From positions 1-64,000 of the IMG/VR virus record IMGVR_UViG_3300048586_000179: a DNA stretch of 64,000 bases. One strand, written 5' to 3'. A program made the position numbers and the translations under genes. This document shows positions 9,791 through 26,798 of the stretch, one piece after another. The first letter of the stretch is position 1. The number at the start of each line of letters is the position of its first letter. The notes beneath the pieces were generated by a model. The model had not been told where the DNA came from. It did no database searches and saw only the letters and a program-made list of their open reading frames with translations. The stretch comes from a virus.

Positions 9791-9806
9791 GATCCCGATG
9801 GGGACC
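9791..9806 (-). promoter_or_regulatory. GGTCCCC element, copy 1
   Basis: Leftward GGTCCCC-ATC-GGG; TCCC/GGGA stem on the plus (template) strand; 16 bases from the ATG at 9774. Confidence 0.75.
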
Positions 9807-9809
9807 CCG

Positions 9810-9832
9810 AAAAACCGCCCCTTGCGGGGCGG
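9810..9832 (-). terminator. intrinsic terminator
   Basis: CCGCCCC / GGGGCGG stem then TTTTTC, directly abutting element copy 1. Confidence 0.85.
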
Positions 9833-9837
9833 CGCCA

Positions 9838-10245
9838 TCAGATGAGGCCGAGCCTGAACTGCGTCTCCGAGAGGAAGACCGTGAGCTGCTTGGGCGTCAC
9901 GTTCAGCTTCTTGGCGCGGGCCAGGAGGTGGTCGATGTCCGCGATCAAGATCGTATCAAATCCGTCATCGCCACCGTAATAGGCCTGCTTGGCGTCCCAC
10001 CAGCCGTCCGGATCCTTGTCCGGATTGCACTCCTCGGCGTAGACGACGATGGAGTGGTCTGGTTCCGCGCCGGGCTTCTGCAGGTGCGGCTTGCCGTTCG
10101 ACATCAGGTAGACGCCGCGATCTCCGACCAGCCAGAGGCCGGGCCCCTTGGCTGGGCCGGCGTAAGTCGCGCCCCATTCGGTGCAGGACTTGGCGTGGTC
10201 GATCAGGGGCATGACCTGTGCGAGGTCGAAGTGCAGTGTCGACAT
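9838..10245 (-). CDS. unknown protein
   Basis: 135 residues from the ATG at 10243-10245 (AGGAGACACCC upstream). PGLWLVGDRGVYLMSNGKP and SIVVYAEECNPDKDPDGWW suggest a beta-rich fold; FDTILIADIDHLLARAKKL is a helical C-terminal part. Monocistronic cassette. Not recognised. Confidence 0.7.
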   Translation of the reverse strand: MSTLHFDLAQVMPLIDHAKSCTEWGATYAGPAKGPGLWLVGDRGVYLMSNGKPHLQKPGAEPDHSIVVYAEECNPDKDPDGWWDAKQAYYGGDDGFDTILIADIDHLLARAKKLNVTPKQLTVFLSETQFRLGLI

Positions 10246-10261
10246 GGGTGTCTCCTTTGTT

Positions 10262-10278
10262 GGTTCCCGAAGGGGACC
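10262..10278 (-). promoter_or_regulatory. GGTCCCC element, copy 2
   Basis: GGTCCCC-TTC-GGG. On the template strand GGTTCCC-GAA-GGGGACC gives 7 pairs (one T.G) with a 3-base loop, the strongest hairpin of the set; 16 bases from the ATG. Confidence 0.8.
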
Positions 10279-10282
10279 CCGG

Positions 10283-10307
10283 AAAAGCCGCCCCCTTGCG
10301 GGGGCGG
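10283..10307 (-). terminator. intrinsic terminator
   Basis: CCGCCCCC / GGGGGCGG stem with TTTTCC; ends the 10314-10700 transcript. Confidence 0.85.
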
Positions 10308-10313
10308 GGGCGC

Positions 10314-10700
10314 TCAGTCGCAGCGGGCCACGACGAAGGTCTGGTCCTTCTGGATGATGCCGACGTATTCGCACTCGAAGAGCACGATCAGTTCGTCGCG
10401 CAGCTTGGCGCGGGCCAGCTCCTGCAGCGGCGGATCGGCGGGATCGCCGTCCTCGTCAGGTTGCCCCGTGCCATACTGGATGGCGTAGTGCCCCTTCTCG
10501 TTCTGCTGCAGGGTGAAGCCAGCCTGCGGGTTGTAGGTGCAGCCGGCAGTCCTGAGGTAGCCGGCGTTGGCCTGCTCCCGTGCGGGCCGCTCGTCATTGG
10601 CATAGAACCAGCCGGGCAACATGCCCAGGTGGTCCGGGCGGCTGTCAGGGTGCGTCAGCTCCCAGACCAGTCCGGCGCTGAAGACGGTAGCGTCGTTCAT
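10314..10700 (-). CDS. unknown protein
   Basis: 128 residues from MNDATVFSAGLVWELT (ATG 10698-10700, AGGAGATATCCC upstream). Features are WFYANDERPAREQANAGYL and a helical acidic C-terminal part (LQELARAKLRDELIVLFECE). Single-gene cassette. Not recognised. Confidence 0.7.
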   Translation of the reverse strand: MNDATVFSAGLVWELTHPDSRPDHLGMLPGWFYANDERPAREQANAGYLRTAGCTYNPQAGFTLQQNEKGHYAIQYGTGQPDEDGDPADPPLQELARAKLRDELIVLFECEYVGIIQKDQTFVVARCD

Positions 10701-10718
10701 GGGATATCTCCTCTGTTG

Positions 10719-10734
10719 GGTCCCAAGGGGGACC
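10719..10734 (-). promoter_or_regulatory. GGTCCCC element, copy 3
   Basis: GGTCCCCCTTGGGACC; perfect GGTCCC/GGGACC six-pair stem; 18 bases from the ATG at 10700. Confidence 0.8.
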
Positions 10735-10737
10735 CCG

Positions 10738-10764
10738 CAAAAGCCCCGCCCCCGGAGGGGCGGG
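10738..10764 (-). terminator. intrinsic terminator
   Basis: CCCGCCCC / GGGGCGGG stem then CTTTTGC; ends the 10771-11178 transcript. Confidence 0.85.
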
Positions 10765-10770
10765 ACGTGG

Positions 10771-11178
10771 TCAGGCGGCCTTGTCTGCGGAGCCGTGCCG
10801 CACGACATGGGCCACGCCTTCCCAGTTCTGGGCGATAGCGGCCTGGGCGATGGCATCGAGGTTGTTCTTGACGAACTTGGCCCATTGGATGCCGTGCGCG
10901 TCGTTGCGGCGCTTCTGCTCCTGCAAGAGCATGCGGCGCCCCCGGTCGTCGCCAACCGTGCGGGTGCAGGTGGTGACGCCGGAGCCGGACTTGTCCCGGG
11001 TGACGGGCCAGAAGCTGAGGTAGATGCCCCGCCTGGTCTCGCCGCCGGTCCAGTAGTTCGGGCCGCCGAGGGTGTAGTAGACCTCGATCTCCATCTCTTC
11101 GAGGCGGGCCTTGCCCGTGAGCTCGTCGGTTACCTCTTTCATGGGGACGTAGGTCTTCAGGTAGCGGTCGTTGGACAT
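10771..11178 (-). CDS. unknown protein
   Basis: 135 residues. ARLEEMEIEVYYTLGGPNYW and RGIYLSFWPVTRDKSG are beta strands; the C-terminal half is helical (QWAKFVKNNLDAIAQAAIAQ). Single-gene cassette with element copy 4. Function unknown. Confidence 0.7.
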   Translation of the reverse strand: MSNDRYLKTYVPMKEVTDELTGKARLEEMEIEVYYTLGGPNYWTGGETRRGIYLSFWPVTRDKSGSGVTTCTRTVGDDRGRRMLLQEQKRRNDAHGIQWAKFVKNNLDAIAQAAIAQNWEGVAHVVRHGSADKAA

Positions 11179-11195
11179 GGGTTTTCCTTTCGGTT

Positions 11196-11212
11196 GCTTC
11201 CCGAAGGGGACC
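11196..11212 (-). promoter_or_regulatory. GGTCCCC element, copy 4
   Basis: GGTCCCC-TTC-GGGAAGC; 17 bases from the ATG at 11178. Confidence 0.75.
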
Positions 11213-11216
11213 CCGG

Positions 11217-11243
11217 AAAAGCCCGCCCCCTCATGGGGCGGGG
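11217..11243 (-). terminator. intrinsic terminator
   Basis: CCCGCCCC / GGGGCGGG stem then GCTTTTCC; ends the 11248-11412 transcript. Confidence 0.85.
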
Positions 11244-11247
11244 TCGT

Positions 11248-11412
11248 TCATGTGAATATCCAGAGCGCGGTCAGCACGATGATGGTCGTGCCACCCATGA
11301 TGACGAACGGAACCCACCAGCCTTCAGGCAGGACGGGATCCGCGTCGCGGTGCTGGTCCATGTCCGGCCGGTAGCCGGACCACGGGTCGTGCGGGTCGTG
11401 TGGATCATGCAT
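11248..11412 (-). CDS. small single-pass membrane protein
   Basis: 54 residues. The N-terminus is hydrophilic with HDP repeats (MHDPHDPHDPWSG); residues about 33-53 (WVPFVIMGGTTIIVLTALWIF) form one transmembrane helix at the extreme C-terminus, the layout of a tail-anchored protein with its N-terminus in the cytoplasm. Single-gene cassette. May act on the host membrane; function unknown. Confidence 0.75.
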   Translation of the reverse strand: MHDPHDPHDPWSGYRPDMDQHRDADPVLPEGWWVPFVIMGGTTIIVLTALWIFT

Positions 11413-11427
11413 GGTGGTTCCTTTCAT

Positions 11428-11443
11428 GTGTCCTGTGGGGACC
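11428..11443 (-). promoter_or_regulatory. GGTCCCC element, copy 5
   Basis: GGTCCCC-ACA-GGA; GTCC/GGAC pairs on the template strand; 15 bases from the ATG at 11412. Confidence 0.75.
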
Positions 11444-11447
11444 CCGG

Positions 11448-11473
11448 AAAAGCCCACCCCTCATGGGGTGGGC
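11448..11473 (-). terminator. intrinsic terminator
   Basis: GCCCACCCC / GGGGTGGGC stem then TTTTCC; ends the 11897 to 11477 two-gene unit. Confidence 0.85.
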
Positions 11474-11476
11474 TGG

Positions 11477-11656
11477 TCAGCGGGTGCCGACCAGGTTCTC
11501 CAGCGCCTCACGGATGAGGTCGCTGAGCGACACGTCCTTGCGTTCCGCCAGCATGTAGAGGCGGGCGTAGGTGACCGGATCGACGCGGGTCTGCACCATC
11601 TTGGGCAGGTTGCCCCTGGGCGCGTTGGCCCGAAGGGTGCGGCGCTTATCGGTCAT
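11477..11656 (-). CDS. CopG-like ribbon-helix-helix protein
   Basis: 59 residues. MVQTRVDPVTYARLYMLAE followed by VSLSDLIREALENLV is the standard RHH pattern (strand, helix A, SLSDLIREA helix B). A basic N-terminal tail precedes it. The start overlaps the 11646-11897 gene by 11 bases, with GGAGGTGC as ribosome site, so the pair is co-translated. Likely a dimeric DNA-binding regulator. Confidence 0.8.
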   Translation of the reverse strand: MTDKRRTLRANAPRGNLPKMVQTRVDPVTYARLYMLAERKDVSLSDLIREALENLVGTR

Positions 11657-11897
11657 TGGTCTGCACCTCCTCGTACTTGGGGTTGACGGGATAGACGGTG
11701 GTCTGCCGCATGTACTGGACCGTGACGCGCATGCCGGTCTGCGTGCAGTAGGCGCGCGCCAGGTTTTCGTCATCGAGGTCCTGGTAGTTCTCGAGGATGT
11801 CCTCCTCGCGGATCTCGATGACGAGGCCGCCCGGCGTCCAGAGTTGCAGCTTGCGGGTATGGTCGCGGGTGGGCGGACTGATGGGTCGTTCGGCCAT
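11646..11897 (-). CDS. unknown protein co-translated with the RHH gene
   Basis: 83 residues. RKLQLWTPGGLVIEIREED and GMRVTVQYMRQTTVYPV are strands around a helical middle. First gene of a two-gene cassette. It could be a partner of the RHH protein; not recognised. Confidence 0.65.
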   Translation of the reverse strand: MAERPISPPTRDHTRKLQLWTPGGLVIEIREEDILENYQDLDDENLARAYCTQTGMRVTVQYMRQTTVYPVNPKYEEVQTNDR

Positions 11898-11914
11898 GAT
11901 GGGTCTCCTTTCAT

Positions 11915-11930
11915 GTGTCCCGTGGGGACC
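11915..11930 (-). promoter_or_regulatory. GGTCCCC element, copy 6
   Basis: GGTCCCC-ACG-GGACAC; GTCCC/GGGAC perfect five-pair stem with a GTG loop on the template strand; 17 bases from the ATG at 11897. Confidence 0.8.
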
Positions 11931-11937
11931 ACGGAGA

Positions 11938-11961
11938 AGCTTGCGTGATTAGTGTAAACTG
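11938..11961. repeat. 24-bp exact repeat, copy 1
   Basis: AGCTTGCGTGATTAGTG then TAAACTG; identical to 26748-26771. Here it lies just upstream of element copy 6, in the opposite orientation relative to that element. Confidence 0.9.
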
Positions 11962-11963
11962 CG

Positions 11964-11987
11964 AAAAGCCACCCCCGAAGGGGTGGC
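11964..11987 (-). terminator. intrinsic terminator
   Basis: CCACCCC / GGGGTGG stem then CTTTTCGC; ends the 11991-12221 transcript. Confidence 0.85.
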
Positions 11988-11990
11988 GGA

Positions 11991-12221
11991 TCAGTCGTGG
12001 AGGTCTGGGTCATCCCAATAGGCCGTCTTGAGGTGGTCGATCTCGACCTGCAGCTCGGCGAGCGTTGCGTCGGCTGGAAGTATCGTGCCACTGACCGGCC
12101 CTTGTTCGGGCGTGCGGCCAATGAGCGGCGTCTCCTTGCCTTCGTCGACGCGGATCAGCGTGACGCGCAGGGCGCGATCGACACCAGGCCAGACGTCAAT
12201 CCTGTAGTGGGGGTAGGCCAT
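11991..12221 (-). CDS. unknown protein
   Basis: 76 residues. HYRIDVWPGVDRALRVTLIR is beta-rich; the C-terminal LAELQVEIDHLKTAYWDD is helical. Single-gene cassette with element copy 7. Not recognised. Confidence 0.65.
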   Translation of the reverse strand: MAYPHYRIDVWPGVDRALRVTLIRVDEGKETPLIGRTPEQGPVSGTILPADATLAELQVEIDHLKTAYWDDPDLHD

Positions 12222-12234
12222 TGTGGTCTCCTTC

Positions 12235-12250
12235 GTTTCCTATGGGGACC
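12235..12250 (-). promoter_or_regulatory. GGTCCCC element, copy 7
   Basis: GGTCCCC-ATA-GGAAAC; TTTCC/GGGGA pairing with two T.G on the template strand; 13 bases from the ATG at 12221. Confidence 0.75.
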
Positions 12251-12263
12251 CCGGCAGATCAGC

Positions 12264-12287
12264 GAAAAACCACCCCCGAAGGGGTGG
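12264..12287 (-). terminator. intrinsic terminator
   Basis: CCACCCC / GGGGTGG stem then TTTTTC; ends the 12291-12491 transcript. Confidence 0.85.
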
Positions 12288-12290
12288 CCG

Positions 12291-12491
12291 TCACTTTCCG
12301 CGACGTTCCAGTTCGGCCTGGACGGCCTTGACGATGACGGCGGACGCGAAGGCATTGAGGCCGGTATGGCACTCAAGGGTCGCCTTCAGGTGCGCGGTGT
12401 CGCGCCGCTCGAGGCCGAGGCCGCGGGCGGCAGACGCGATGTCATCGTCGGTGATCGGCCGATAGTCGGCCGGTCTGCGTTGTTCGATCAT
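12291..12491 (-). CDS. small helical protein
   Basis: 66 residues from MIEQRRPADYRPITDDDI. Helices IASAARGLGLERRD and ASAVIVKAVQAELERRG flank a short Cys/His loop (ATLECHTGL). AGGAGATC precedes the ATG, which overlaps the HNH stop as ATGA. Element copy 8 lies inside the HNH reading frame. Function unknown. Confidence 0.65.
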   Translation of the reverse strand: MIEQRRPADYRPITDDDIASAARGLGLERRDTAHLKATLECHTGLNAFASAVIVKAVQAELERRGK

Positions 12492-13147
12492 GGCAGTGAT
12501 CTCCTTTCCGGTGGGGACCCCGCAAGTGCACGCTCGACAGACCACCCCCGGTCCAGCCGCGAGATGATTGTCTGGGCCCGGATGCCCGTGATCCTTGACC
12601 ACTCAGCCACGCACAGATGTCGGCCCTGCCATGTGACGATCCTCGCCCTGCTGGAGTTGTGAGCCTGGACCCTACGCGTGGCCCAGCGGCAGTTGGACGG
12701 CTCATAGTTACCGTCGTTGTTGATCCGATCGACTGTCAGCTTAGGGTCGGGGCACGGCCCCAAGTCCTGAAGGAACCGGTCAAAGCCACCAGGGCCTGTC
12801 CATCTCTTGCAAACCCGGATCCCGCGCCCGCCATAGCGATGATAGCCGGCGTAGTTCTTGTCCTTGCAGCGCCGATGCATGTCCTTCCAGGCAAACCATT
12901 CCTTGGTATGGCTCATGCCGTGGGTCAGGGGGCGCGAGACCAGGGCTGCCCGCTGACAGCCGCAGCTCTTCACCCTGCCCCGCCAAACATGCGGCAGGTC
13001 GTATTCCTTCACCGTGCCACAAACGCACTGACATACAATCCGACGGCGAACCGTGCCCTTCCGCCCATCCGTGCCCCCGTAAATCTTGCGATCCGCCTCA
13101 GAGAGGCAGGTCAGGAAGTGAAAGGTCTTGCCAACTGGATCGAACAT
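12488..13147 (-). CDS. HNH homing endonuclease
   Basis: 219 residues. Around residues 80-160 are YHRYGGRGIRVCKRW, LTVDRINNDGNYEPSNCRWAT and QAHNSSRAR, the HNH pattern of free-standing phage endonucleases (DRINNDG...N...N). An N-terminal zinc-ribbon-like part has CQCVCG and CGCQ. The C-terminal third (WQGRHLCVAEWSRITGIRAQ) resembles a NUMOD-type DNA-binding HTH. Unlike its neighbours it has its own sigma70 promoter and no visible ribosome site. Its last codons overlap element copy 8, consistent with insertion into an existing cassette. Confidence 0.85.
   Translation of the reverse strand: MFDPVGKTFHFLTCLSEADRKIYGGTDGRKGTVRRRIVCQCVCGTVKEYDLPHVWRGRVKSCGCQRAALVSRPLTHGMSHTKEWFAWKDMHRRCKDKNYAGYHRYGGRGIRVCKRWTGPGGFDRFLQDLGPCPDPKLTVDRINNDGNYEPSNCRWATRRVQAHNSSRARIVTWQGRHLCVAEWSRITGIRAQTIISRLDRGWSVERALAGSPPERRSLP
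12505..12519 (-). promoter_or_regulatory. GGTCCCC element, copy 8
   Basis: GGTCCCC-ACC-GGAAAG; 13 bases from the ATG at 12491 and embedded in the last codons of the HNH gene. Confidence 0.7.
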
Positions 13148-13154
13148 GCGTTAA

Positions 13155-13183
13155 TAGTTAGCACGGTAGGTCTGGTCTTTCAA
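13155..13183 (-). promoter_or_regulatory. sigma70-like promoter of the HNH gene
   Basis: TTGAAA (13178-13183), 17-base spacer, TAACTA (13155-13160), leftward. The predicted start falls at the ATG (13147), implying a leaderless transcript. Confidence 0.6.
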
Positions 13184-13185
13184 CG

Positions 13186-13215
13186 CAAAAAGACCGGCCC
13201 CCGAAGGGACCGGTC
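13186..13215 (-). terminator. intrinsic terminator
   Basis: GACCGG / CCGGTC outer stem with an inner CCC/GGG, then TTTTTGCG; ends the 13221-14120 transcript. Confidence 0.8.
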
Positions 13216-13220
13216 CGGTG

Positions 13221-14120
13221 TCAGGCAGCCAGGAGTTCGGCCATCTCGGTCGAACGCATGGTGCGCGCCACCCGGTCGTCGCGCCCGGTGCGGGACGTGA
13301 CGGCGCCCGAGCCTTGCCGGATGTCTCCGTGCGTGGCCCAATGGGTCATGGCATTATACAAACCCCAGACGTTCTGGTCCTCGTTCTTGAAGCGACCGAG
13401 GATGTCCAGGACCAAAGGCTCAGAGTAGTTCTCGTCGCCGTTGGCCTTCAGGGGCAACTTGGCCAGGGTGGCCTTCAGGAAGTCTTCCGCCTTGTCGATG
13501 GTGAGACGGGTCTTGACGTAGAGGCCGAAGCGCTCGCTGTCGTTCTCCATCATGTCGGCGGCGGTCAGGATCGACCGCTTCAGGGCGTCGATCGAGAAGT
13601 TCGAGGTGTGCTTGCCATAGGTCGAAGCGCTGAACTTCTCGTTCACCATGCCGTTCATGCAGACGAGCCGGAAGTATCCGGCCGACGACTTCACGGCATA
13701 GGTCCCGTCGTGGCTGTTGAGCGCGGTGAAGCGGCGCAACAGGACGTCCGAGCCGAGGCCTTTGGGGGTGGTGAAGTCCCCGACCACGATGTCGGAGCGC
13801 ATGATGGCTCCGTTGGCCTGCAGACCGGTGCTGATGAAGGCACCCCGCTGTCCCTTCAGGTCGTAGAAGTCGCGCTGAGAGGGGCTGCGGTTGGTCCGCT
13901 CCACGATCTCGTAGCCCTGCTCGTGCAGGGTCTGGAGCATCGGGTCGAGCACGTCCTGGTGCTGGACGGGCTTGAAGTTCTGGCCGCAGATGGCCAGCAG
14001 GCTGTCGTCGTCGGTCCGGTAGACACCGCGCCCGATGGTCGGGTCGATCTCCTTGCCGTTATGGTCGAAGATCGGCTTCACGACCGCCGACCATCCGGTA
14101 ACAGGGCTGTCAAATGGCAT
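13221..14120 (-). CDS. DUF932 phage/plasmid protein
   Basis: 299 residues. The long DUF932 pattern is present: RGVYRTDDDSLLAICGQNF, PVQHQDVLDPM, FKPVQ, GDFTTPKGLGSDVLLRRFTA, then VCMNGMV. DUF932 proteins are common in phages and plasmids; their role is not settled. Single-gene cassette, element copy 9 28 bases upstream. Length is typical. Confidence 0.85.
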   Translation of the reverse strand: MPFDSPVTGWSAVVKPIFDHNGKEIDPTIGRGVYRTDDDSLLAICGQNFKPVQHQDVLDPMLQTLHEQGYEIVERTNRSPSQRDFYDLKGQRGAFISTGLQANGAIMRSDIVVGDFTTPKGLGSDVLLRRFTALNSHDGTYAVKSSAGYFRLVCMNGMVNEKFSASTYGKHTSNFSIDALKRSILTAADMMENDSERFGLYVKTRLTIDKAEDFLKATLAKLPLKANGDENYSEPLVLDILGRFKNEDQNVWGLYNAMTHWATHGDIRQGSGAVTSRTGRDDRVARTMRSTEMAELLAA

Positions 14121-14148
14121 GTGTTGTCTCCTTCATGCGCTTGGGTTC

Positions 14149-14164
14149 AGTCCCGAAGGGGACC
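14149..14164 (-). promoter_or_regulatory. GGTCCCC element, copy 9
   Basis: GGTCCCC-TTC-GGGACT; GTCCC/GGGAC stem on the template strand; 28 bases from the ATG at 14120. Confidence 0.75.
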
Positions 14165-14194
14165 CCGCAAAAGGATGCTCCACAATCTGAATGG

Positions 14195-14227
14195 GGAAAA
14201 GCACCACCCCCGGAGGGGCGGCGCGGT
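14195..14227 (-). terminator. imperfect intrinsic terminator
   Basis: CACCCC / GGGGCGG region pairs with A-C mismatches, followed by TTTTCC; ends the 14770 to 14229 unit. Confidence 0.6.
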
Positions 14228-14228
14228 G

Positions 14229-14447
14229 TCAGGACTTGAGGACGGTGAAGCTGTCCGGTGGCGCGACAAGGCTGAGCGTGCGCCCGTTGTCCCAGCGCAT
14301 CCCGATGTGCCATTCGGTCCGGTGCTTGCCGGATGGGTACTCGTTGATGGTCACGACCGTTCCTTCTTCCCCGATCGGGATCGGGCAGGGGTCGTTCTCC
14401 ATCGACAGGAGGCGAATGCGGTCGCCCACCTTGCAGGGGGCGCTCAT
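14229..14447 (-). CDS. small beta-barrel-like protein
   Basis: 72 residues. VGDRIRLLSMENDPCPIPIG, EEGTVVTINEY, RTEWHIGMRWDNGRTLSLV follow the strand pattern of a small SH3-like or DUF4314-like barrel (GDRIRL...D.P.P...G..GTV). Start overlaps the upstream stop as ATGA. Second gene of the cassette. Nucleic-acid or protein binding is possible. Confidence 0.75.
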   Translation of the reverse strand: MSAPCKVGDRIRLLSMENDPCPIPIGEEGTVVTINEYPSGKHRTEWHIGMRWDNGRTLSLVAPPDSFTVLKS

Positions 14448-14770
14448 TGCACGTCCCTGGTGTAGCGCAGGCCGCCCATCGTCGAGGCGATGATCCTGAA
14501 GCTTTCCATGTCGGAGTTCTTCAGCACCTCCTCGTTCAGGAAATCGGCATGGTCTGCAGCGCTCTCAAAGCTGGTGTAGCGCGCCCAGCCCAAAGGGACT
14601 GGATGGTAGCCACGTTCGTTGGCTATAGCCACGCCCAGGGCTCCATTGTAGCCTGGAGGGGCTTCGTGCGGCATCACCGCCACAAAGGCGATGGGGCCAC
14701 GATCTTCGCCCGCTACAGCCTTGGCATAAGCCTCAGCGCGATGCTGGAGGAGCGGCACGGTTTCGGTCAT
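14444..14770 (-). CDS. unknown protein
   Basis: 108 residues, mixed alpha/beta, with GPIAFVAVMPHEAPPGYNG and a helical SFESAADHADFLNEEVLK. First gene of a two-gene unit under element copy 10. Not recognised. Confidence 0.65.
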   Translation of the reverse strand: MTETVPLLQHRAEAYAKAVAGEDRGPIAFVAVMPHEAPPGYNGALGVAIANERGYHPVPLGWARYTSFESAADHADFLNEEVLKNSDMESFRIIASTMGGLRYTRDVQ

Positions 14771-14787
14771 GTGGGTCTCCTTTCATT

Positions 14788-14803
14788 GGTCCCAGTAGGG
14801 ACC
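14788..14803 (-). promoter_or_regulatory. GGTCCCC element, copy 10 (variant)
   Basis: GGTCCCT-ACT-GGGACC, the only copy without GGTCCCC; the change is compensated by a perfect GGTCCC/GGGACC stem. 17 bases from the ATG at 14770. Confidence 0.75.
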
Positions 14804-14821
14804 CCGGCAAAACAGGCTTGG

Positions 14822-14850
14822 CAAAAGCGCCGCCCCCGAAGGGACGGCGC
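14822..14850 (-). terminator. intrinsic terminator
   Basis: GCGCCG-CCC / GGG-A-CGGCGC stem then TTTTGC; ends the 15857 to 14855 unit. Confidence 0.8.
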
Positions 14851-14854
14851 GGTG

Positions 14855-15232
14855 TCAGGCCGCTTGCTGCGGCTCGGGCTCCGGTTCGTCCGGATACATG
14901 CCCTTCCAGGTCTTGAAGGCGTTCGGGCCCTTGCTGTCGGATGGCACGCCGTTGTGCAGAACGTAGGCATACTCGTAGAGCAGCCGCTGGTTCTCGTCGT
15001 CGGCGCGGCCGGCGGCGTCAAAGAGATCGCCGCGGATGATGGCCTGCAGGAAGTCTCCCGGCACGATACCGAAGAGCACCCAGCGGACGAGGCCGCCGTG
15101 CATGCGGTACGGGATCATGCGGAAGTGTTCCGCCCAGCGCGGGTTTCCGCACAGGTCCGCGTAAGCGGTCATCATCCCATCATAGCCGTCCGAGAGTTGG
15201 GTGAAGCGGGCAACTGCTTCATGCCGTTTCAT
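14855..15232 (-). CDS. unknown protein
   Basis: 125 residues from MKRHEAVARFTQLSD; GGAGG lies 6 bases before the ATG. Helical, with aromatic clusters (RWAEHFRMIPYRMHGGLVRW) and an acidic, Pro-rich end. Overlaps the upstream gene by 14 bases. Not recognised. Confidence 0.7.
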   Translation of the reverse strand: MKRHEAVARFTQLSDGYDGMMTAYADLCGNPRWAEHFRMIPYRMHGGLVRWVLFGIVPGDFLQAIIRGDLFDAAGRADDENQRLLYEYAYVLHNGVPSDSKGPNAFKTWKGMYPDEPEPEPQQAA

Positions 15233-15857
15233 CGCCAACCTCCATTTCTTCGACCAGGCGCATGTCGAGCTTCATGAACTCGTCCATGGTGCCGGTCCAG
15301 AGGACCGCGCAGCCGTAGTAGATGGGGCGGTCGCCATTGGGGTAGCGTTCAGCCTTGCCCTTCTGCTCCTTGATCTCGGCAGGGGACAGGCGGGCGTGCT
15401 GCCACTGGGTATCCTCGCGGGTGTTGAAGCCGCGCAGGATGAGGACCTGCTTCGCATCGAAGTCGAAGATGTAGCCCCATTCGCAGAACAGGCTGTCCTT
15501 GACGAACCGGGTATCTTCGGTGGCGATGCCGGCGTTGAGCCGCAGCATCAGGCTCCCCTGCTGCCCACGCAGCTGGGAATACCAGTCGTCTCCGGTGGAG
15601 ACGCTGTCGTTCAGGAACTCGGCATAGGTCTTGGCCTGTTCCCGTGTGGGTTTTCCACCCGCGTCGACGTAGGTCATCTTCGCGACGAGAGGGGTGAGGT
15701 GGTCGAAGATGTCGTTGGGCTCAAGGCCCTCCGAGGTGATCTCCCCCATCTCCTTCTGCAGATCTTCGCCCGTCGAGGTGGGATAGGCGTCGAACTGCTG
15801 GTAACTGGCGTGCAGCACCCCGTCTTTCAGGGTGCCGATCACTCCTCTGGTTCCCAT
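15219..15857 (-). CDS. unknown protein starting MGTRGVIG
   Basis: 212 residues. The N-terminus MGTRGVIGTLKDG and VLHASYQQFDAYPTSTGEDL are typical of a phage family whose members begin MGTRG, but its activity is unknown. Later, FCEWGYIFDFDAKQVLILRG forms strands. First gene of a two-gene unit under element copy 11. Confidence 0.7.
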   Translation of the reverse strand: MGTRGVIGTLKDGVLHASYQQFDAYPTSTGEDLQKEMGEITSEGLEPNDIFDHLTPLVAKMTYVDAGGKPTREQAKTYAEFLNDSVSTGDDWYSQLRGQQGSLMLRLNAGIATEDTRFVKDSLFCEWGYIFDFDAKQVLILRGFNTREDTQWQHARLSPAEIKEQKGKAERYPNGDRPIYYGCAVLWTGTMDEFMKLDMRLVEEMEVGDETA

Positions 15858-20779: not shown

Positions 20780-20781
20780 CC

Positions 20782-20812
20782 GAAAAGGCCACCCCGTAGC
20801 GGCGGGGTGGCT
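20782..20812 (-). terminator. intrinsic terminator
   Basis: GCCACCCCG / CGGGGTGGC stem then CTTTTCG; ends the 20818-21228 transcript. Confidence 0.9.
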
Positions 20813-20817
20813 CAATC

Positions 20818-21228: not shown

Positions 21229-21272
21229 TTGTGATCCTTTCTCGATACGATGCCTGGAAGCCACACCATGCG

Positions 21273-21288
21273 GCTTCCCATGGGGACC
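21273..21288 (-). promoter_or_regulatory. GGTCCCC element, copy 22
   Basis: TGGTCCCC-ATG-GGAAGC; 44 bases from the ATG at 21228. Confidence 0.75.
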
Positions 21289-21305
21289 ACGCTAATCCCG
21301 GTAAG

Positions 21306-21332
21306 CGAAAAGACCGCCCCCGGAGGGGCGGT
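21306..21332 (-). terminator. intrinsic terminator
   Basis: ACCGCCCC / GGGGCGGT stem then CTTTTCGC; ends the 21336-21737 transcript. Confidence 0.85.
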
Positions 21333-21335
21333 GGA

Positions 21336-21737
21336 TCAGCCCGGCTTGTAGAGGCCGGACTTCTCGAGCACGTCGCGCAGGACCGCGTTGGCCTCGTAGA
21401 AGTCGAGACGGTAGCAGCCGGCGGGTGCCCCGGGCTTGTCCGCCCAGAGGCGGCGCATCCCGTGCCTGTCGATCGACTTGGTGGCGAGGCGAAGGCGGAT
21501 TTCGCGCTTCATCTTCTCGACCACCGCATTGTCGTCGGTGTCCAGGCGGAAGTGCATCGGCTTCTTCCACCCATCCTGGGGCAGAAGGTCGGCGTGCTCC
21601 TTGCACAGCCGCTCGATGCGGGCAGGGCCTTCCTTGCGGCCGCGGCAGAACTCGATGTAGGCGATCGGCTTGCGATCCCAGTATCGGGTCCCTTCCGCGA
21701 CGCCGTCGTGAAAAGCCAGATATGCATAGTAGGTCAT
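21336..21737 (-). CDS. unknown protein
   Basis: 133 residues, mixed alpha/beta and basic (CRGRKEGPARIERLCKEHAD; EKMKREIRLRLATKSIDRHG), ending YEANAVLRDVLEKSGLYKPG. Single-gene cassette under element copy 23. Not recognised. Confidence 0.65.
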   Translation of the reverse strand: MTYYAYLAFHDGVAEGTRYWDRKPIAYIEFCRGRKEGPARIERLCKEHADLLPQDGWKKPMHFRLDTDDNAVVEKMKREIRLRLATKSIDRHGMRRLWADKPGAPAGCYRLDFYEANAVLRDVLEKSGLYKPG

Positions 21738-21759
21738 GATCTGGGGTCCTTTCGTGGTT

Positions 21760-21775
21760 GTTCCCTATGGGGACC
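21760..21775 (-). promoter_or_regulatory. GGTCCCC element, copy 23
   Basis: TGGTCCCC-ATA-GGGAAC; six template-strand pairs; 22 bases from the ATG at 21737. Confidence 0.8.
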
Positions 21776-21787
21776 ACGGCAAAGGCA

Positions 21788-21813
21788 AATGGACCGGACC
21801 CGAAGGCCCGGCC
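21788..21813 (-). terminator. weak intrinsic terminator
   Basis: GGCCGGGCC / GGTCCGGTCC stem with mismatches and only ATTTG after it; ends the 21819-22007 transcript. Confidence 0.55.
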
Positions 21814-21818
21814 AGGAG

Positions 21819-22007
21819 TTACCGATGCGGCGTGCGCGCTTTCTGCCGATGCCGGTCCTGGATCAACTCCAGGATCTCGGCTACCTCGTCGATGCCATCC
21901 AGGCCTCTTCCGGACCTGAGGATCGCAGCCGCCCGTTGTCGCAAGTCCGCAGTTGAGAGATGCTGAATATCCTGCATCTCAGGTTGGCGGATGTAGCTCG
22001 TGAGCAT
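21819..22007 (-). CDS. small helical protein, paralogue of 19307-19594
   Basis: 62 residues. MQDIQHLSTADLRQRAAAIL matches the middle of the 19307-19594 product; the rest is one more helix (GIDEVAEILELIQDRHRQK). Single-gene cassette under element copy 24. Function unknown. Confidence 0.65.
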   Translation of the reverse strand: MLTSYIRQPEMQDIQHLSTADLRQRAAAILRSGRGLDGIDEVAEILELIQDRHRQKARTPHR

Positions 22008-22034
22008 GTGCTCTCCTTCCTCGCGCTTGGGGTT

Positions 22035-22050
22035 ACTCCCGATGGGGACC
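22035..22050 (-). promoter_or_regulatory. GGTCCCC element, copy 24
   Basis: GGTCCCC-ATC-GGGAGT; 27 bases from the ATG at 22007. Confidence 0.75.
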
Positions 22051-22055
22051 CCGCG

Positions 22056-22105
22056 GAAAAAAGAACCTTCTCACGCTCTCTCCCATCCGTGCGAACGGGT
22101 GGGGC
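22056..22105 (-). terminator. probable intrinsic terminator
   Basis: CCCACCCG / CGGATGGG hairpin, then GAGAAGGTTCTTTTTTCC. Ends the transcript from element copy 25. Confidence 0.6.
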
Positions 22106-22237
22106 TTCACGCTGACATTCCATCAACTGCGCGGCTTCCACCGACCTTCTCCAGAGCCTGTCACGGCCCGATCTCTGTCGGCTTTCACTGCTTCCCTCGC
22201 ATGCTTGACAGCGGGTGCAGTTGAGAACGGATGTCTC
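22056..22237 (-). ncRNA. candidate small RNA 1 (orphan cassette)
   Basis: Element copy 25 points into about 180 bases that end at a T-run terminator but hold no convincing gene. The only frame with a ribosome-site-like GAGGG is a 21-codon GTG frame (22123-22188, KADRDRAVTGSG...). Either a short-peptide gene or a noncoding transcript. Not matched to a known RNA family. Confidence 0.4.
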
Positions 22238-22254
22238 GTTCTCCTATGGGGACC
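22238..22254 (-). promoter_or_regulatory. GGTCCCC element, copy 25
   Basis: TGGTCCCC-ATA-GGAGAAC; no start codon with a good ribosome site follows. Confidence 0.75.
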
Positions 22255-22266
22255 ACACAAGATTGC

Positions 22267-22297
22267 GAAAAGAGACCCACCCCTTTCAGGGCGGGTC
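22267..22297 (-). terminator. intrinsic terminator
   Basis: GACCC-GCCC / GGGTGGGTC stem then TCTTTTCGC; ends the 22314-22436 transcript. Confidence 0.8.
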
Positions 22298-22313
22298 GGG
22301 CGCTCTCGGCCGG

Positions 22314-22436
22314 TCACTCGGCGACGGCGGCGGTCCAGCTAGCCTGCAGGTAGGGCAGGGTGTCGCGCTGGAACCTCTCGCTTGTCACATGGAGGTATCC
22401 GGTGAAGAGAATGGCCGCGATGTATATCCATTTCAT
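22314..22436 (-). CDS. very small membrane or secreted peptide
   Basis: 40 residues, MKWIYIAAILFTGYLHVTS then a hydrophilic tail. The hydrophobic N-terminus is a single transmembrane helix or uncleaved signal anchor. AAAGGAGACC lies at a good distance from the ATG at 22434-22436 and element copy 26 is 11 bases upstream, which supports a real gene despite its size. Confidence 0.7.
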   Translation of the reverse strand: MKWIYIAAILFTGYLHVTSERFQRDTLPYLQASWTAAVAE

Positions 22437-22447
22437 GGCAGGTCTCC

Positions 22448-22463
22448 TTTTCCCATGGGGACC
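22448..22463 (-). promoter_or_regulatory. GGTCCCC element, copy 26
   Basis: TGGTCCCC-ATG-GGAAAAGGAGACC: like copy 12, the GG is only 4-5 bases from the ribosome site, which fixes transcription start at this GG or upstream. Confidence 0.8.
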
Positions 22464-22471
22464 ACACGAGG

Positions 22472-22496
22472 CGAAAAAACGATGCCTTGCGGCATG
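22472..22496 (-). terminator. intrinsic terminator
   Basis: ATGCC / GGCAT stem with a GCAA loop, then CGTTTTTTCGCC; ends the transcript from element copy 27. Confidence 0.85.
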
Positions 22497-22612
22497 TCCC
22501 CAGCCTGGATCCTCCATTCACCGTCGCCCTGGCGAACCAGGGATCAGGCGTCTTTCAGACCTGCCCCTTGCGGGGCTACCAAGCGATGCCTTTCAGCATG
22601 CTGGGCGAGGCC
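22472..22612 (-). ncRNA. candidate small RNA 2 (orphan cassette)
   Basis: About 140 bases between element copy 27 and a strong terminator, without a supported reading frame (the only ATG with context gives MLKGIAW). It is dense in local hairpins: AGCATGCT, GCCCCGCAAGGGGC, and CCCTGG-TTCG-CCAGGG with a UUCG tetraloop, then the terminator. This looks like a structured RNA. No known family recognised. Confidence 0.5.
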
Positions 22613-22630
22613 GTTATTCCTATGGGGACC
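22613..22630 (-). promoter_or_regulatory. GGTCCCC element, copy 27
   Basis: CGTGGTCCCC-ATA-GGAATAAC; heads an orphan cassette. Confidence 0.75.
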
Positions 22631-22644
22631 ACGGATTATCGGGG

Positions 22645-22671
22645 CGAAAAAATGCTGCCCTTGGGCGGCAT
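22645..22671 (-). terminator. intrinsic terminator
   Basis: ATGCCGCCC / GGGCAGCAT nine-pair stem (one G.T) then TTTTTTCG; ends the transcript from element copy 28. Confidence 0.85.
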
Positions 22672-22913
22672 CGACTGCTTTGTTGGTTTTACCGCACCGG
22701 TAGAGGCCGGCGCCGTCCAGCATCAGGACGATCGCAGTCTTGGCGTATCACCCCACGCCCGTGGGTCTCAATCCCCACCCTGACCATTCTTGAGTTCATG
22801 GTCGGGTGGGCCGTCTGGCAATCACTCTTCGGGAATGTCATTCGCGTCTTTTGCCAAACGGGAAACTTGCGTGAAGCAAGTCCCTCTGCGACTTTGTGCC
22901 GCCGCAGATTTCT
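22645..22913 (-). ncRNA. candidate small RNA 3 (orphan cassette)
   Basis: About 270 bases between element copy 28 and a strong terminator. The longest frame (MTFPKSDCQTAHPTMNS..., 50 codons) has no ribosome site and unlikely composition. Hairpins include GACTTGCTTCACGCAAGT and the CCCACGGGCGTGGG region. Either noncoding or a decayed gene. Confidence 0.4.
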
Positions 22914-22930
22914 GCATTCCTATGGGGACC
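22914..22930 (-). promoter_or_regulatory. GGTCCCC element, copy 28
   Basis: CGTGGTCCCC-ATA-GGAATGC. The TAG inside it is the stop codon of the 22920-23135 gene, and no terminator separates the two. Confidence 0.75.
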
Positions 22931-23135
22931 ACGGATTATTCCGGCGGCCCGACTTCTCCCGGGCCAGGTCAATGATCCACTCGGACACCCACCCCTCGTC
23001 CAGCTGCATCTGCTCGTAGACCATCAAACCCACGATGTAGTCCTGCTGGAACTGCGTCAGCCCAAGGCCAGGCAGCGCCTGCCTGACCGTCTCCAACGCC
23101 TCCTCGAGCGTGGGGATCAGCGCATCACTCGCCAC
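22920..23135 (-). CDS. unknown protein, GTG start, ending inside the GGTCCCC element
   Basis: 71 residues from the GTG at 23133-23135 (MASDALIPTLEEALETVRQA), overlapping the upstream gene by 11 bases. Helical: GLTQFQQDYIVGLMVYEQMQ, then LDEGWVSEWIIDLAREKSG. The stop TAG is supplied by element copy 28. Most upstream codons of the open frame are antisense-like, so a short start is preferred. Function unknown. Confidence 0.6.
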   Translation of the reverse strand: MASDALIPTLEEALETVRQALPGLGLTQFQQDYIVGLMVYEQMQLDEGWVSEWIIDLAREKSGRRNNPWSP

Positions 23136-23280
23136 GATCCGGTTCCCACAGGCGACCCGTGAAATCCCGGTCGCCCAGCTGCATGCGCGTCCCGTCCGCA
23201 CCCAGCCCCATCTCCTCGAGGAATTCCTCCTCATCATCCTGGAAATCGTCGTCCTCCAGGTCGTCATCCTTGGGTGGCAT
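23125..23280 (-). CDS. very acidic small protein
   Basis: 51 residues from MPPKDDDLEDDDFQDDEEEF; about 40% Asp and Glu in the first 25 residues. GGAGAACCACC precedes the ATG at 23278-23280. Such acidic peptides may mimic DNA, but there is no direct evidence. First gene left of the divergent control region at 23281-23453. Confidence 0.65.
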   Translation of the reverse strand: MPPKDDDLEDDDFQDDEEEFLEEMGLGADGTRMQLGDRDFTGRLWEPDRGE

Positions 23281-23346
23281 GGTGGTTCTCCTTGACAAGG
23301 TTTCCGCTCGACCCCCTCGACAAGCGAAACGCGGCGAAGCATAGTG

Positions 23347-23376
23347 CCCTTGCGCCCTGTCGAGGGGGCGCAAGGG
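23347..23376. promoter_or_regulatory. 11-bp inverted repeat between divergent units
   Basis: CCCTTGCGCCC at 23347-23357 and its exact complement GGGCGCAAGGG at 23366-23376, 8-base loop, in the region between the leftward array and the rightward replication genes. No T-run follows, so an operator is more likely than a terminator. TAGTGCCCT (partial operator motif) overlaps its left arm. Confidence 0.55.
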
Positions 23377-23453
23377 TAGTCTAGCAATCATGGAGAGTTG
23401 GATGCAAGGACCGGGAAGTCCCTTGACCAAGATGCTGTGCATGGCACCAGATC

Positions 23454-24386
23454 ATGCCTCAAGATAGCGGCGCAGCATCACAGACGCAAGACACTATTGT
23501 CAATGTTGCCTTGCGATTGGCTGATAACGGGGTGCCTGTCTTCCCCGTCAGCACGAAGAAGACACCCGTCTGGGAGAAAGGCGAAAGCCCGAACGGAAGG
23601 GACGGGCTGCATGCGGCGACGACCGATCCCGACGAGGTCGAAGCCCTCTTTGCCCACCCCCGCACCGCAGGGATCGGCATGCCCACCGGCAAGATCAGTC
23701 GGGTCACCGTCATCGATGTGGACTGCGGACGTGGCAAGCCCCACCGGGATGCCGCGATGGAATGGCTCGATGGCGCGCGCAAGAGCGCGCTCTGGGGCGC
23801 GACCGTGGTCCGGACAGGGTCGGGTGGCCTCCATTACTACATGCGCTACAGGGAGGGCCTGAAGACCGGGGCCAATGTCTGGGCGATGGGGGTCGATTGC
23901 CGCAATGATGGGGGCTACGTGGTCGTGCCGCCCTTCATGGGGTATCGGTACGAGCGCCAGACGGACCCCGATGACTGGCCCGCAGTGCCTGAGCCGCCGG
24001 CCTCCCGCGTCAAGCGCACGATCGTCGACCAGAAGGATGGCCGCTGCCCACCCGAGATCATGGCCATGCGCGACCTGATCGAGGGCAAGGTCACATGGCA
24101 CGACCCGGTGCGGGACATCATCGCGCACCTGGTGGGGTCAGGGTGGTCGGATGCCGAGATCCTGCGCTTCACCTTCCAGTGGACCTGGCCGGGCTACAAC
24201 CCGGCTGAGACCTTCGAGCAGATCTGCGTCATGCTGAATGGCGCGCGGGAGAAGTGGACCAAGAGCCAGAAGCCCGAAACCCTGACCGACCTGCGTCTCG
24301 ACAGGTTCGTGATGCTCTGGGATCGGTGCAGCACCGCCGAAAAATTGGAAATCATCAAGATGATCAAAGAGGTAGCACCCGAATGA
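23454..24386 (+). CDS. PrimPol (bifunctional primase-polymerase)
   Basis: 310 residues. The N-terminal ~190 match the archaeo-eukaryotic primase-like prim-pol domain: GIGMPTGKISRVTVIDVD with catalytic DVD at 88-90, TGSGGLHYYM with His127, and VDCRNDGGYVVVPP with the third acidic cluster. The C-terminal part is helical. It overlaps the SF3 helicase gene as ATGA, forming the replication initiation pair. No clear ribosome site precedes the ATG. Known activity: primer synthesis and short DNA polymerisation. Confidence 0.9.
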   Translation: MPQDSGAASQTQDTIVNVALRLADNGVPVFPVSTKKTPVWEKGESPNGRDGLHAATTDPDEVEALFAHPRTAGIGMPTGKISRVTVIDVDCGRGKPHRDAAMEWLDGARKSALWGATVVRTGSGGLHYYMRYREGLKTGANVWAMGVDCRNDGGYVVVPPFMGYRYERQTDPDDWPAVPEPPASRVKRTIVDQKDGRCPPEIMAMRDLIEGKVTWHDPVRDIIAHLVGSGWSDAEILRFTFQWTWPGYNPAETFEQICVMLNGAREKWTKSQKPETLTDLRLDRFVMLWDRCSTAEKLEIIKMIKEVAPE

Positions 24387-25960
24387 CGGACGAGATCACA
24401 CCGCCCGCAACCCCCGTCCGTCGTCTTTCCCGCGTGATGATCCCCCCGGAAGAACAAGCCCGGCTCCTTGCCGAGCAGGCGGAGGACGCCGGGACCGATC
24501 CACTTCAGACCCGCATGGGGTGGAGCTTCGCGCAGAACTACCACGAGCGCTTTTGCTTCGATCATGGGCTTGAGCAATGGATGGTCTGGAACGGTAGTAT
24601 CTGGACCGTCGACACCTCCGGCCTTCCCCTCTACGAGATGATGCAGTTCGGGGATCGGCTGATCCGTGTTCACCCCACAGCGCGACGGCAACTGAGCAGC
24701 GTGGGCTTCTGCCGTGGCGCTCTGGAAGCGGCAGCCCACGACAGACGCATGGCGCGGGCGCATGACGAGTTCGACAATGCCCCGAGCATCATCGCCACTC
24801 CCAAGGGTTACATCGACCTGGAGACTGGTGAGGTGAGGCAGCCAGATCGATCCCTGAATATCACCAGGTCGACAGCGATCAGTCCGGAGCCGGGGCCATG
24901 CCCGATGTGGATGAACTTCCTCGCAGCCGTCCATAAGGGGCAGGAAGAGATCATCGACTGGCTGCAGAAGCTCTGCGGCGAGGCCCTGCTCGGCCGGCAG
25001 ACCGACCACCACTTCGTGTTCTTCTACGGCGATGGCGGCAATGGCAAGTCGCAGTTCCTCGAAACCCTGTCAGGCATCATGGGAGACTACGCCGCGCAGG
25101 CTCAGGCCGGCACGTTTACCCAGCCAGAGGGGCGTAGCTTCGGAGGGCAGCATGAGCACGTCCTGGCCATGCTGGAAGGCGCCCGGCTGGTGCTGGTGTC
25201 CGAGCCGGGGGATGGCGAACAGTGGAACATGGGGCGGGTGAAGCAATGGACCGGCGGCGGCATGATCACCGCCGACCTCAAGTACAAGGCGGCCCAGACC
25301 TTCAGGCCCGCAGGACTGCTCGTGCTGGAGAGCAACAAGGCCCTCAAGGTCGAGGTGGTCAACAATGCGGTGGCAAGGCGGCTGCGCTACGTGGTCTGGC
25401 CGCACAAGTTTGCCGGCACCGGATACGAGCACCTGAAGATCGATGACCTCGCCCTGAAGATGCTGGCCGAGGAAGGGCCGCAGATCTTCTCCTGGATGAT
25501 CGAAGGTGCACAGAGGGTCTTGCGAGAGGGCCTGCGAACCACCCCCGAGATCGAAAGGACCAGCGCCAGCTACCTCAAGGAACAGGATGTCGATCAGCGC
25601 TTCATCGAGGATTGCCTCGAAGTCGATGAACACGTCCAGCCCGGCGTCGATCTGCAGGATGCTGTCACCGTCTACAACGAATGGGCACGGAACACGGAAG
25701 CCCCGGCGCGCAAGAACATCGGAACCCGGCTGGTCAGCAAGGGACTGGAAGTCTCCAAGAGCCACCCCCGACGCTACATCCGCAAGCACAGCCTGTCAGC
25801 GAATGGCATGGCCTACATGAGCGCCGCCCTCATGCGGAGGATCAGGAGCAAGGAACTGACGAAGGCCGACGCTGAGCGTTGGCGCAAGACCCTGCTCGAA
25901 TGGGACCTGAAGGGGGATGATGGAGCCTACGTGAATGATCTACTTGGGGTTGTTAGTTAA
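24383..25960 (+). CDS. D5-like SF3 replicative helicase
   Basis: 525 residues from the ATG at 24383 (ATGA overlap); the longer open frame upstream is not used. A D5_N-like region is followed by the SF3 core: Walker A GDGGNGKS (216-223), Walker B LVLVSEP (E274), KQWTGGGMITADLKYK and sensor LLVLESNK (N318). A winged-helix-like C-terminal part follows (KNIGTRLVSKGLEVSKSHPR). Likely a hexameric helicase working with the PrimPol. No replicative DNA polymerase is seen in the window. Confidence 0.9.
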   Translation: MTDEITPPATPVRRLSRVMIPPEEQARLLAEQAEDAGTDPLQTRMGWSFAQNYHERFCFDHGLEQWMVWNGSIWTVDTSGLPLYEMMQFGDRLIRVHPTARRQLSSVGFCRGALEAAAHDRRMARAHDEFDNAPSIIATPKGYIDLETGEVRQPDRSLNITRSTAISPEPGPCPMWMNFLAAVHKGQEEIIDWLQKLCGEALLGRQTDHHFVFFYGDGGNGKSQFLETLSGIMGDYAAQAQAGTFTQPEGRSFGGQHEHVLAMLEGARLVLVSEPGDGEQWNMGRVKQWTGGGMITADLKYKAAQTFRPAGLLVLESNKALKVEVVNNAVARRLRYVVWPHKFAGTGYEHLKIDDLALKMLAEEGPQIFSWMIEGAQRVLREGLRTTPEIERTSASYLKEQDVDQRFIEDCLEVDEHVQPGVDLQDAVTVYNEWARNTEAPARKNIGTRLVSKGLEVSKSHPRRYIRKHSLSANGMAYMSAALMRRIRSKELTKADAERWRKTLLEWDLKGDDGAYVNDLLGVVS

Positions 25961-26006
25961 GACGGTGAAGGGGTCAGTATCAACCGGTGGTTGCCTTTCA
26001 GAAGAA

Positions 26007-26030
26007 GAAGTCCCAAAATTTTGGGACTTC
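26007..26030. promoter_or_regulatory. perfect palindrome O1
   Basis: 24-bp perfect palindrome with core GTCCCAAAATTTTGGGAC (26010-26027). TATAAG at 26034-26039 is a possible -10, so O1 would cover the -35 region. Confidence 0.75.
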
Positions 26031-26094
26031 ACCTATAAGTTCGCTCCACGCGCGCTTGCGCGCCCGCGCGGGATAGGGCAAAGTTATGTGGCAA

Positions 26095-26112
26095 GTCCCA
26101 AAATTTTGGGAC
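26095..26112. promoter_or_regulatory. perfect palindrome O2
   Basis: GTCCCAAAATTTTGGGAC again, exactly 85 bp from O1 (about eight helical turns), just before the GAGGGAG ribosome site of the 26135 gene. A GC-rich hairpin, GCGCGC-TT-GCGCGC (26050-26063), lies between them. Confidence 0.75.
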
Positions 26113-26134
26113 CCGAAAACGAGGGAGCATGACC

Positions 26135-26398
26135 ATGATGAAGCTGTTCAAGGACGACGCCGACATTGCCGACATCGACAAAGCCATCGAAACCATGAAG
26201 GAGGTCGAGCGGCTGCTGACCTCGATCATCGTGCGAGGTGATGACTGGATGAAGGCCGTGCCCGTGCGAGCGTCTACCGCCGACAGGCTGAACGCGCACA
26301 AGAACCGCATCCTGAAGATGAGGATGGACATGCAGGAAGATGGCTTCCAGGTCCGGAGGGCGCGTCGCCTGCCACCTCCGCCGGACGGCTACAGCTGA
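26135..26398 (+). CDS. small charged protein downstream of the twin palindromes
   Basis: 87 residues. Three ATGs lie close together; 26135 is preferred because GAGGGAG is 7 bases before it (26129 is too close). Helical and charged (DIDKAIETMKEVERLLTSII; RLNAHKNRILKMRMDM) with a Pro-rich end. The palindromes probably control it. It could be a replication accessory or regulatory protein; not recognised. Confidence 0.65.
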   Translation: MMKLFKDDADIADIDKAIETMKEVERLLTSIIVRGDDWMKAVPVRASTADRLNAHKNRILKMRMDMQEDGFQVRRARRLPPPPDGYS

Positions 26399-26403
26399 CC
26401 GCG

Positions 26404-26435
26404 AAAAAAGGAGCGCCCGCATGATGCGGACGCCC
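26404..26435 (-). terminator. intrinsic terminator
   Basis: GCGTCCGCAT / ATGCGGGCGC hairpin (one mismatch) then TCCTTTTTTCGC, leftward; ends the 26443-26619 transcript and may also stop rightward reading. Confidence 0.8.
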
Positions 26436-26442
26436 TAGACCA

Positions 26443-26619
26443 TCAGTTCGTTTCGCGCTTATAGCGTTTGAACCAGTTCACCGAGGTCCGCTGCAGGGTC
26501 AGCTTCCTGCCCACATACATGGACAATCCAATGAGCCCCGCGAGTGCGGTGACGGTGATCACGGTCGGCGCGCTGATTGTCAGCGATGCGTTGGTGATGG
26601 CGGCAAGCGTGTGTTCCAT
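26443..26619 (-). CDS. small single-pass membrane protein
   Basis: 58 residues from the ATG at 26617-26619 (AGGAG about 10 bases upstream). Residues about 17-36 (APTVITVTALAGLIGLSMYV) form one transmembrane helix, followed by a basic cytoplasmic-type tail (RKLTLQRTSVNWFKRYKRE). Under element copy 29, separated from the main array by the replication genes. Confidence 0.75.
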   Translation of the reverse strand: MEHTLAAITNASLTISAPTVITVTALAGLIGLSMYVGRKLTLQRTSVNWFKRYKRETN

Positions 26620-26652
26620 AGGGAACGCTCCTCTTTTGTCGAAAGCAGGATT

Positions 26653-26668
26653 GCTTCCTATGGGGACC
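26653..26668 (-). promoter_or_regulatory. GGTCCCC element, copy 29
   Basis: CGTGGTCCCC-ATA-GGAAGC; 33 bases from the ATG at 26619. Confidence 0.75.
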
Positions 26669-26719
26669 ACGCAACCCATTGAAAAAGCTAATGATTGGTA
26701 AAACATATTCGTGGCCGCA

Positions 26720-26736
26720 GCGCGGCGCAGCCGCGC
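26720..26736. repeat. GC-rich hairpin between divergent elements
   Basis: GCGCGGC-GCA-GCCGCGC: perfect 7-pair stem, 3-base loop, no T-run. Placed between the leftward copy 29 and the rightward copy 30. N4 virion polymerase promoters have 5-7-pair stems with 3-base loops, so this could be a strong relative, or a structural or origin element. Confidence 0.6.
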
Positions 26737-26747
26737 GCCGCCTCATC

Positions 26748-26771
26748 AGCTTGCGTGATTAGTGTAAACTG
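26748..26771. repeat. 24-bp exact repeat, copy 2
   Basis: Same sequence as 11938-11961, here 11 bases upstream of the rightward element copy 30. Function unknown. Confidence 0.9.
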
Positions 26772-26782
26772 TCGCGGCATGT

Positions 26783-26798
26783 GGTCCCCATAGGAAAC
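26783..26798 (+). promoter_or_regulatory. GGTCCCC element, copy 30 (rightward)
   Basis: ATGTGGTCCCC-ATA-GGAAAC on the plus strand, 20 bases before the 42-codon gene at 26819. The only rightward copy; it shows that the element's orientation follows the direction of the gene. Confidence 0.8.

Follow-up and report, generated by a model that had tools for sequence, protein, structure and literature searches.

A repeated T7 promoter-like element and an RNA polymerase domain in a giant virion-type protein point to a candidate ejected transcription system in a phage

To our knowledge, ejected single-subunit polymerases are known only from N4-like phages. The N4 virion RNA polymerase (vRNAP; Schitoviridae) is a giant, cysteine-free protein of the structural block with a single-subunit RNA polymerase domain, and N4 carries repeated small early promoters, three in number. 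T7-family systems (Autographiviridae) make short terminated transcripts with an enzyme that is itself an early product of host RNA polymerase. In mycobacteriophages, oriented repeated sites precede many small genes, as start-associated sequences in cluster K and stoperators in cluster A; we know of no tie between these sites and a virion polymerase, and their sequences differ from that of the element described here. Yet another group, the LPD38 large polyvalent proteins (e.g. of PTXU04, phiARM81mr and Pag-Yong1), share a C-terminal region of about 800 aa, lack cysteine and are encoded beside structural genes. Transcription from N4 early promoters starts 11 nt after the centre of a hairpin loop (PMC4496689). 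The Syn5 RNAP promoter, ATTGGGCACCCGTAA followed by GGG, is a characterised double-stranded single-subunit RNAP promoter with a GG..CCC core ahead of the start (PMC3950665).

Here we describe a 64,000-nt stretch (the window) of a 69-kb viral record that resembles both N4 and the T7 family. As in N4, a giant cysteine-free protein of the structural block contains a single-subunit RNA polymerase domain, and small putative early promoters are repeated, here about 30 times and with a possible 3-base-loop inverted repeat. The domain is of T7 type (PF00940) and does not match the N4 vRNAP families, and the layout points to a double-stranded promoter starting at GG rather than 11 nt past a hairpin loop. 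With T7-family phages, especially cyanophage Syn5, the system shares catalytic motifs, an AT block, a GC core, ATN and a +1 GG, and its predicted transcripts are likewise short and terminated. Unlike theirs, its polymerase sits within a virion-type polyprotein of 2761 aa, and there is nearly one putative promoter per gene.

The repeated element and its surroundings

Across the window the pattern GGTCCCYNNNGGR has 32 matches, whereas 100 dinucleotide shuffles averaged 1.74 and never exceeded 5. We discounted a match at 13199, a terminator stem ahead of an HNH gene, and another at 57657 within late coding sequence, leaving 30 true copies at 9794-26795 (29 on the minus strand, one on the plus strand), the same count as in an earlier sequence-only reading of this DNA. 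A relaxed scan allowing one mismatch found no extra site with the element's flanks. The presence of GGTCCC and GG in all copies, also reported in that reading, is true by construction of the search pattern. Its 13-mer is real and also too short: alignment of the 30 copies reveals a site of about 23 bp, conserved on both sides and made up of an AT-rich block, CGK, GGTCCCC, ATN and GGRAA. In 13-mer numbering, an AT/T-rich block at -7 to -4 leads into S, C (27/30), G (30/30) and G/T, and GGTCCCC is followed by A (26/30), T (25/30), any base, GG, R, A (22/30) and A (18/30).

Twenty-eight leftward copies span 9794-22930 (minus strand), each between the end or terminator of the preceding gene and the next gene or RNA, with 13-mers starting at 9794, 10266, 10722, 11200, 11431, 11918, 12238, 12507, 14152, 14791, 15879, 16142, 17141, 17669, 18209, 18906, 19239, 19620, 20006, 20308, 20767, 21276, 21763, 22038, 22242, 22451, 22618 and 22918. 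The 29th (26656-26668, minus strand) lies ahead of a gene at 26443-26619 and is kept in the ortholog of a relative, G002. Divergent from it is the sole rightward copy (26783-26795, plus strand), ahead of a short gene at 26819-26947 that has its own terminator. An exact 24-nt repeat, AGCTTGCGTGATTAGTGTAAACTG, occurs at 11938-11961 and 26748-26771, adjoining an element in opposite relation at each site.

Consistent with the claim that the element precedes nearly every early gene, 26 of the 33 leftward genes in the region have a copy upstream and another 5 lie inside short operons. The two others are a gene at 23125-23280 and the HNH endonuclease gene at 12488-13147; upstream of the latter is TTGAAA-N17-TAACTA, as if it had been inserted with a host-type promoter. 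Copies lie close upstream of start codons, as first reported, over a range of about 14-52 nt rather than 10-45, and a position just after a terminator T-run holds for many of them and not for all. All 26 copies that have a ribosome site place it no closer to the GG than +4. Sigma70-like sites are scarce in this cluster (one in 9-27 kb, compared to 3.3 in shuffles). The element is missing from the late operon and from the genes for replication (prim-pol and helicase, 23532-25960), both of which may rely on host-type promoters; inspection by eye picked out only a few sigma70-like sites. A perfect 18-nt palindrome, GTCCCAAAATTTTGGGAC, occurs twice (26010-26027 and 26095-26112) in the gap that separates the helicase gene from 26129 and is likely a regulator or origin site.

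At three copies (22242, 22618 and 22918) what follows is a structured untranslated RNA and not a gene, so the element does not act in translation. The RNAs, about 150-280 nt long and all on the minus strand, each run from their element to a terminator and fold better than shuffles: 22644-22920 (element 22918, z -5.2), 22474-22620 (element 22618, z -2.6) and 22056-22244 (element 22242, z -2.1), the last with a 5' hairpin that starts right after the GG. The latter two are conserved in G002 with pair-preserving changes. Such RNAs stand in tandem, every one preceded by an element and closed by a terminator, at 22056-22920 here and at 11781-12630 of L015, three in this virus and about five in G002. 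Rfam gave no match in 19900-27000, and they may form a new phage RNA family.

With the GG set as +1, the element resolves into an AT-rich block at -18 to -15, a CGK-GGTCCCC core at -13 to -4, ATN at -3 to -1 and +1 GGRAA. By its information profile and AT test it has the build of a T7-type promoter: about 23 bp long and asymmetric, it joins an AT block to a core and a +1 GG. The AT block was tested in 18 copies, picked by eye, that have a separate terminator T-run (47/72 AT, binomial P 3e-7). Compared to the T7 promoter as printed in PMC3950665, the element agrees at -8 T, -7 C, -5 C, -3 A, -2 T and +1/+2 GG; compared to the Syn5 promoter, it agrees at -12 G, -10 G, -7 to -5 CCC and +1/+2 GG (PMC3950665). 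A role as promoter, with transcripts predicted to start at or near the GG, is thus well supported by layout.

Protein, alignment and pattern scans of viral sequences together with a genome scan identified only three relatives (G001-G003); the other single pattern matches look like chance. No match came up when the early region was compared by megablast with 50,697 phages (INPHARED copy). The element is present in G001, a near-identical contig, and in G002 (RNAP 84%), which has 9 copies in 23 kb, orthologous positions included, one differing in the ATN triplet only. G003 (RNAP about 72%) shows a single pattern match without the element's flanks, and its contig seems confined to late genes. The same element was found wherever the early region is present. 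Loss of the element from relatives that keep the genes had been named as the outcome that would speak against the sequence-only reading; the orthologous positions in G002 retain it.

A polymerase domain within a virion-type giant protein

The giant protein, which combines an RNA polymerase with a C-terminal LPD38 polyvalent/virion module, is encoded in the late structural block at 36239-44524 (plus strand), where its gene follows that of a 1034-aa protein and precedes the portal. Residues 1448-1767 match PF00940 (7.4e-15, 55 bits; cut-off 22) and phrog_414 (1.6e-30), and no other PF00940 match exists in the 69-kb record. The catalytic region (40475-41545, plus strand) contains DDRGR at 40475, motif A VDNSASG from 40586, motif B RDGIKPAIIAMNYG at 40883, a specificity-loop equivalent at 41207-41266 and motif C NHDSF at 41399. 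Alignment with T7-like RNAPs by hhalign (96.4%, E 1.4e-9) brought DxxGR, motifs A, B and C and the specificity-loop stretch into register, with equivalents of T7 RNAP D537, R627, K631, Y639 and D812 present. Pfam did not detect RPOL_N, the N-terminal promoter-binding domain of T7 RNAP, which may have diverged beyond detection, so we claim full T7-family membership for the catalytic domain only. An AlphaFold model of the polymerase (3 sequences) was too poor (pLDDT 44) and was left unused. A JAMM-like motif, HTHTANTPFSSADV, at residues 916-929 (38984-39025) is possibly part of a protease that processes the giant protein after entry.

The LPD38 domain (PF18857, 1.9e-19) lies in a C-terminal region, residues ~1938-2734 (42050-44440, plus strand), that is homologous to other podovirus giants (phrog_18222/9854, LPD38). 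Upstream of this module, five sister LPD38 giants have a methyltransferase, ParB, pyrophosphatase, a weak ART match or no recognised domain, and a family search found no RNA polymerase domain in any of them; the Pag-Yong1 giant protein likewise has no RNAP domain. Among the portal relatives Caulobacter RW, CRP-902, HTVC023P and Pag-Yong1, no RNA polymerase was annotated in the record parts inspected.

The giant protein contains no cysteine in 2761 aa, where about 15 are expected at the late-block rate (P 3e-7). None occurs either in the incomplete copies that G002 and G003 carry, in any of three N4-type vRNAPs or in the five LPD38 sisters, in contrast to T7 RNAP with 12. This fits an ejected protein, and a podophage paper proposes a vRNAP from lack of cysteine, size and helical content (PMC10747016). 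As the portal and the 1034-aa protein of the late block also lack cysteine, its absence marks virion proteins in general and not ejection alone. All LPD38 giants checked (36239-44524; L044, L055-L058; 2197-3292 aa) have zero cysteines, like N4-type vRNAPs, and this could serve as a simple marker for ejected giant proteins.

A model for early transcription and its alternatives

We propose that the 30 elements are T7-family promoters of about 23 bp and that the T7-family RNA polymerase using them is the phage-encoded one embedded in the 2761-aa protein; this protein would be packaged in the particle and ejected along with the DNA. Each small early gene, and the few structured RNAs, would then yield its own short, individually terminated transcript; host RNA polymerase would not be needed, because the polymerase would enter with the DNA. 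Early transcription started by an ejected T7-type polymerase at about 30 T7-type promoters is the simplest account of these observations and, in our judgement, probably the right one; the pairing of enzyme and sites and the early timing are predictions of this model.

The same promoters could instead be read by a polymerase that is active only once made in the cell, serving middle or late genes without ejection. The giant-protein gene does sit in the late operon, and packaging and injection are something we infer, from the module, the gene position and the missing cysteines. Fusion to an LPD38 virion-type module and the protein's complete lack of cysteine argue against this alternative, as do the resemblance of the small monocistronic genes to host-takeover genes and the absence of the element from replication and late genes, and we regard it as unlikely.

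A template-strand hairpin with a 3-base loop, extruded by the element and recognised by the virion polymerase as in N4, is a reading we consider quite unlikely, for all that a virion-type RNA polymerase is encoded here. On the template strand, C6C7/G11G12 pairs in 29-30 of 30 copies and C5-R13 can pair in 30/30, and some copies form stems of 5-7 bp. Stems beyond 3 pairs are only marginally above the A-rich leader background (1.53 pairs compared to 0.5-1.4 at other offsets, P ~0.03), and arm covariation cannot be seen because the 5' arm is invariant. The hairpin had been read as best preserved on the template strand, and yet the loop-closing pair of that strand is lost through the only stem substitution in the set (C7 to T, in the copy at 14791). 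Under N4 spacing, transcripts of 5 genes would begin within the ribosome site or past its start, cutting or removing it, and the upstream AT block would be left unexplained. The giant protein lacks the N4-specific vRNAP_dom, plug and helical Pfam domains and phrog_2206, hhalign against N4-type vRNAPs returned nothing (prob 0.1; the N4-type alignment was poor), and no N4 hallmark gene was matched among the proteins scanned. The promoter-like function put forward in the sequence-only reading is thus upheld by layout, and the hairpin part of that reading is weak. It is also quite improbable that a T7-family polymerase independently became virion-ejected and evolved N4-like template-hairpin recognition, with packaging and the hairpin promoter each arising twice.

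An RNA-level leader that controls processing or translation, on transcripts begun at more distant upstream promoters, would suit the spacing of the elements to start codons; we judge it very improbable, as many copies sit so close behind the terminator of the gene before them that another promoter would not fit, the coding strand pairs less well than the template strand, and non-coding RNAs also carry the element. Least probable of all are operators or stoperators for a phage repressor, for which a small HTH_3 protein (18959-19216) is at hand and mycobacteriophages offer precedents of oriented repeated sites near gene boundaries, given that no integrase was found among the proteins scanned (part of the ORFs), that the element is asymmetric and also stands ahead of untranslated RNAs, and that no alternative promoter is visible between terminator and gene.

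If the model of an ejected T7-type polymerase is correct, host-independent early transcription would have arisen a second time among small phages, through a T7-type enzyme within an unrelated LPD38 polyvalent protein and with an early region of nearly one promoter per gene. The polymerase and its GC-rich promoter would make a new pair that is easily tested in vitro, and would bear on how promoter recognition came to differ between the T7 and N4 polymerases.
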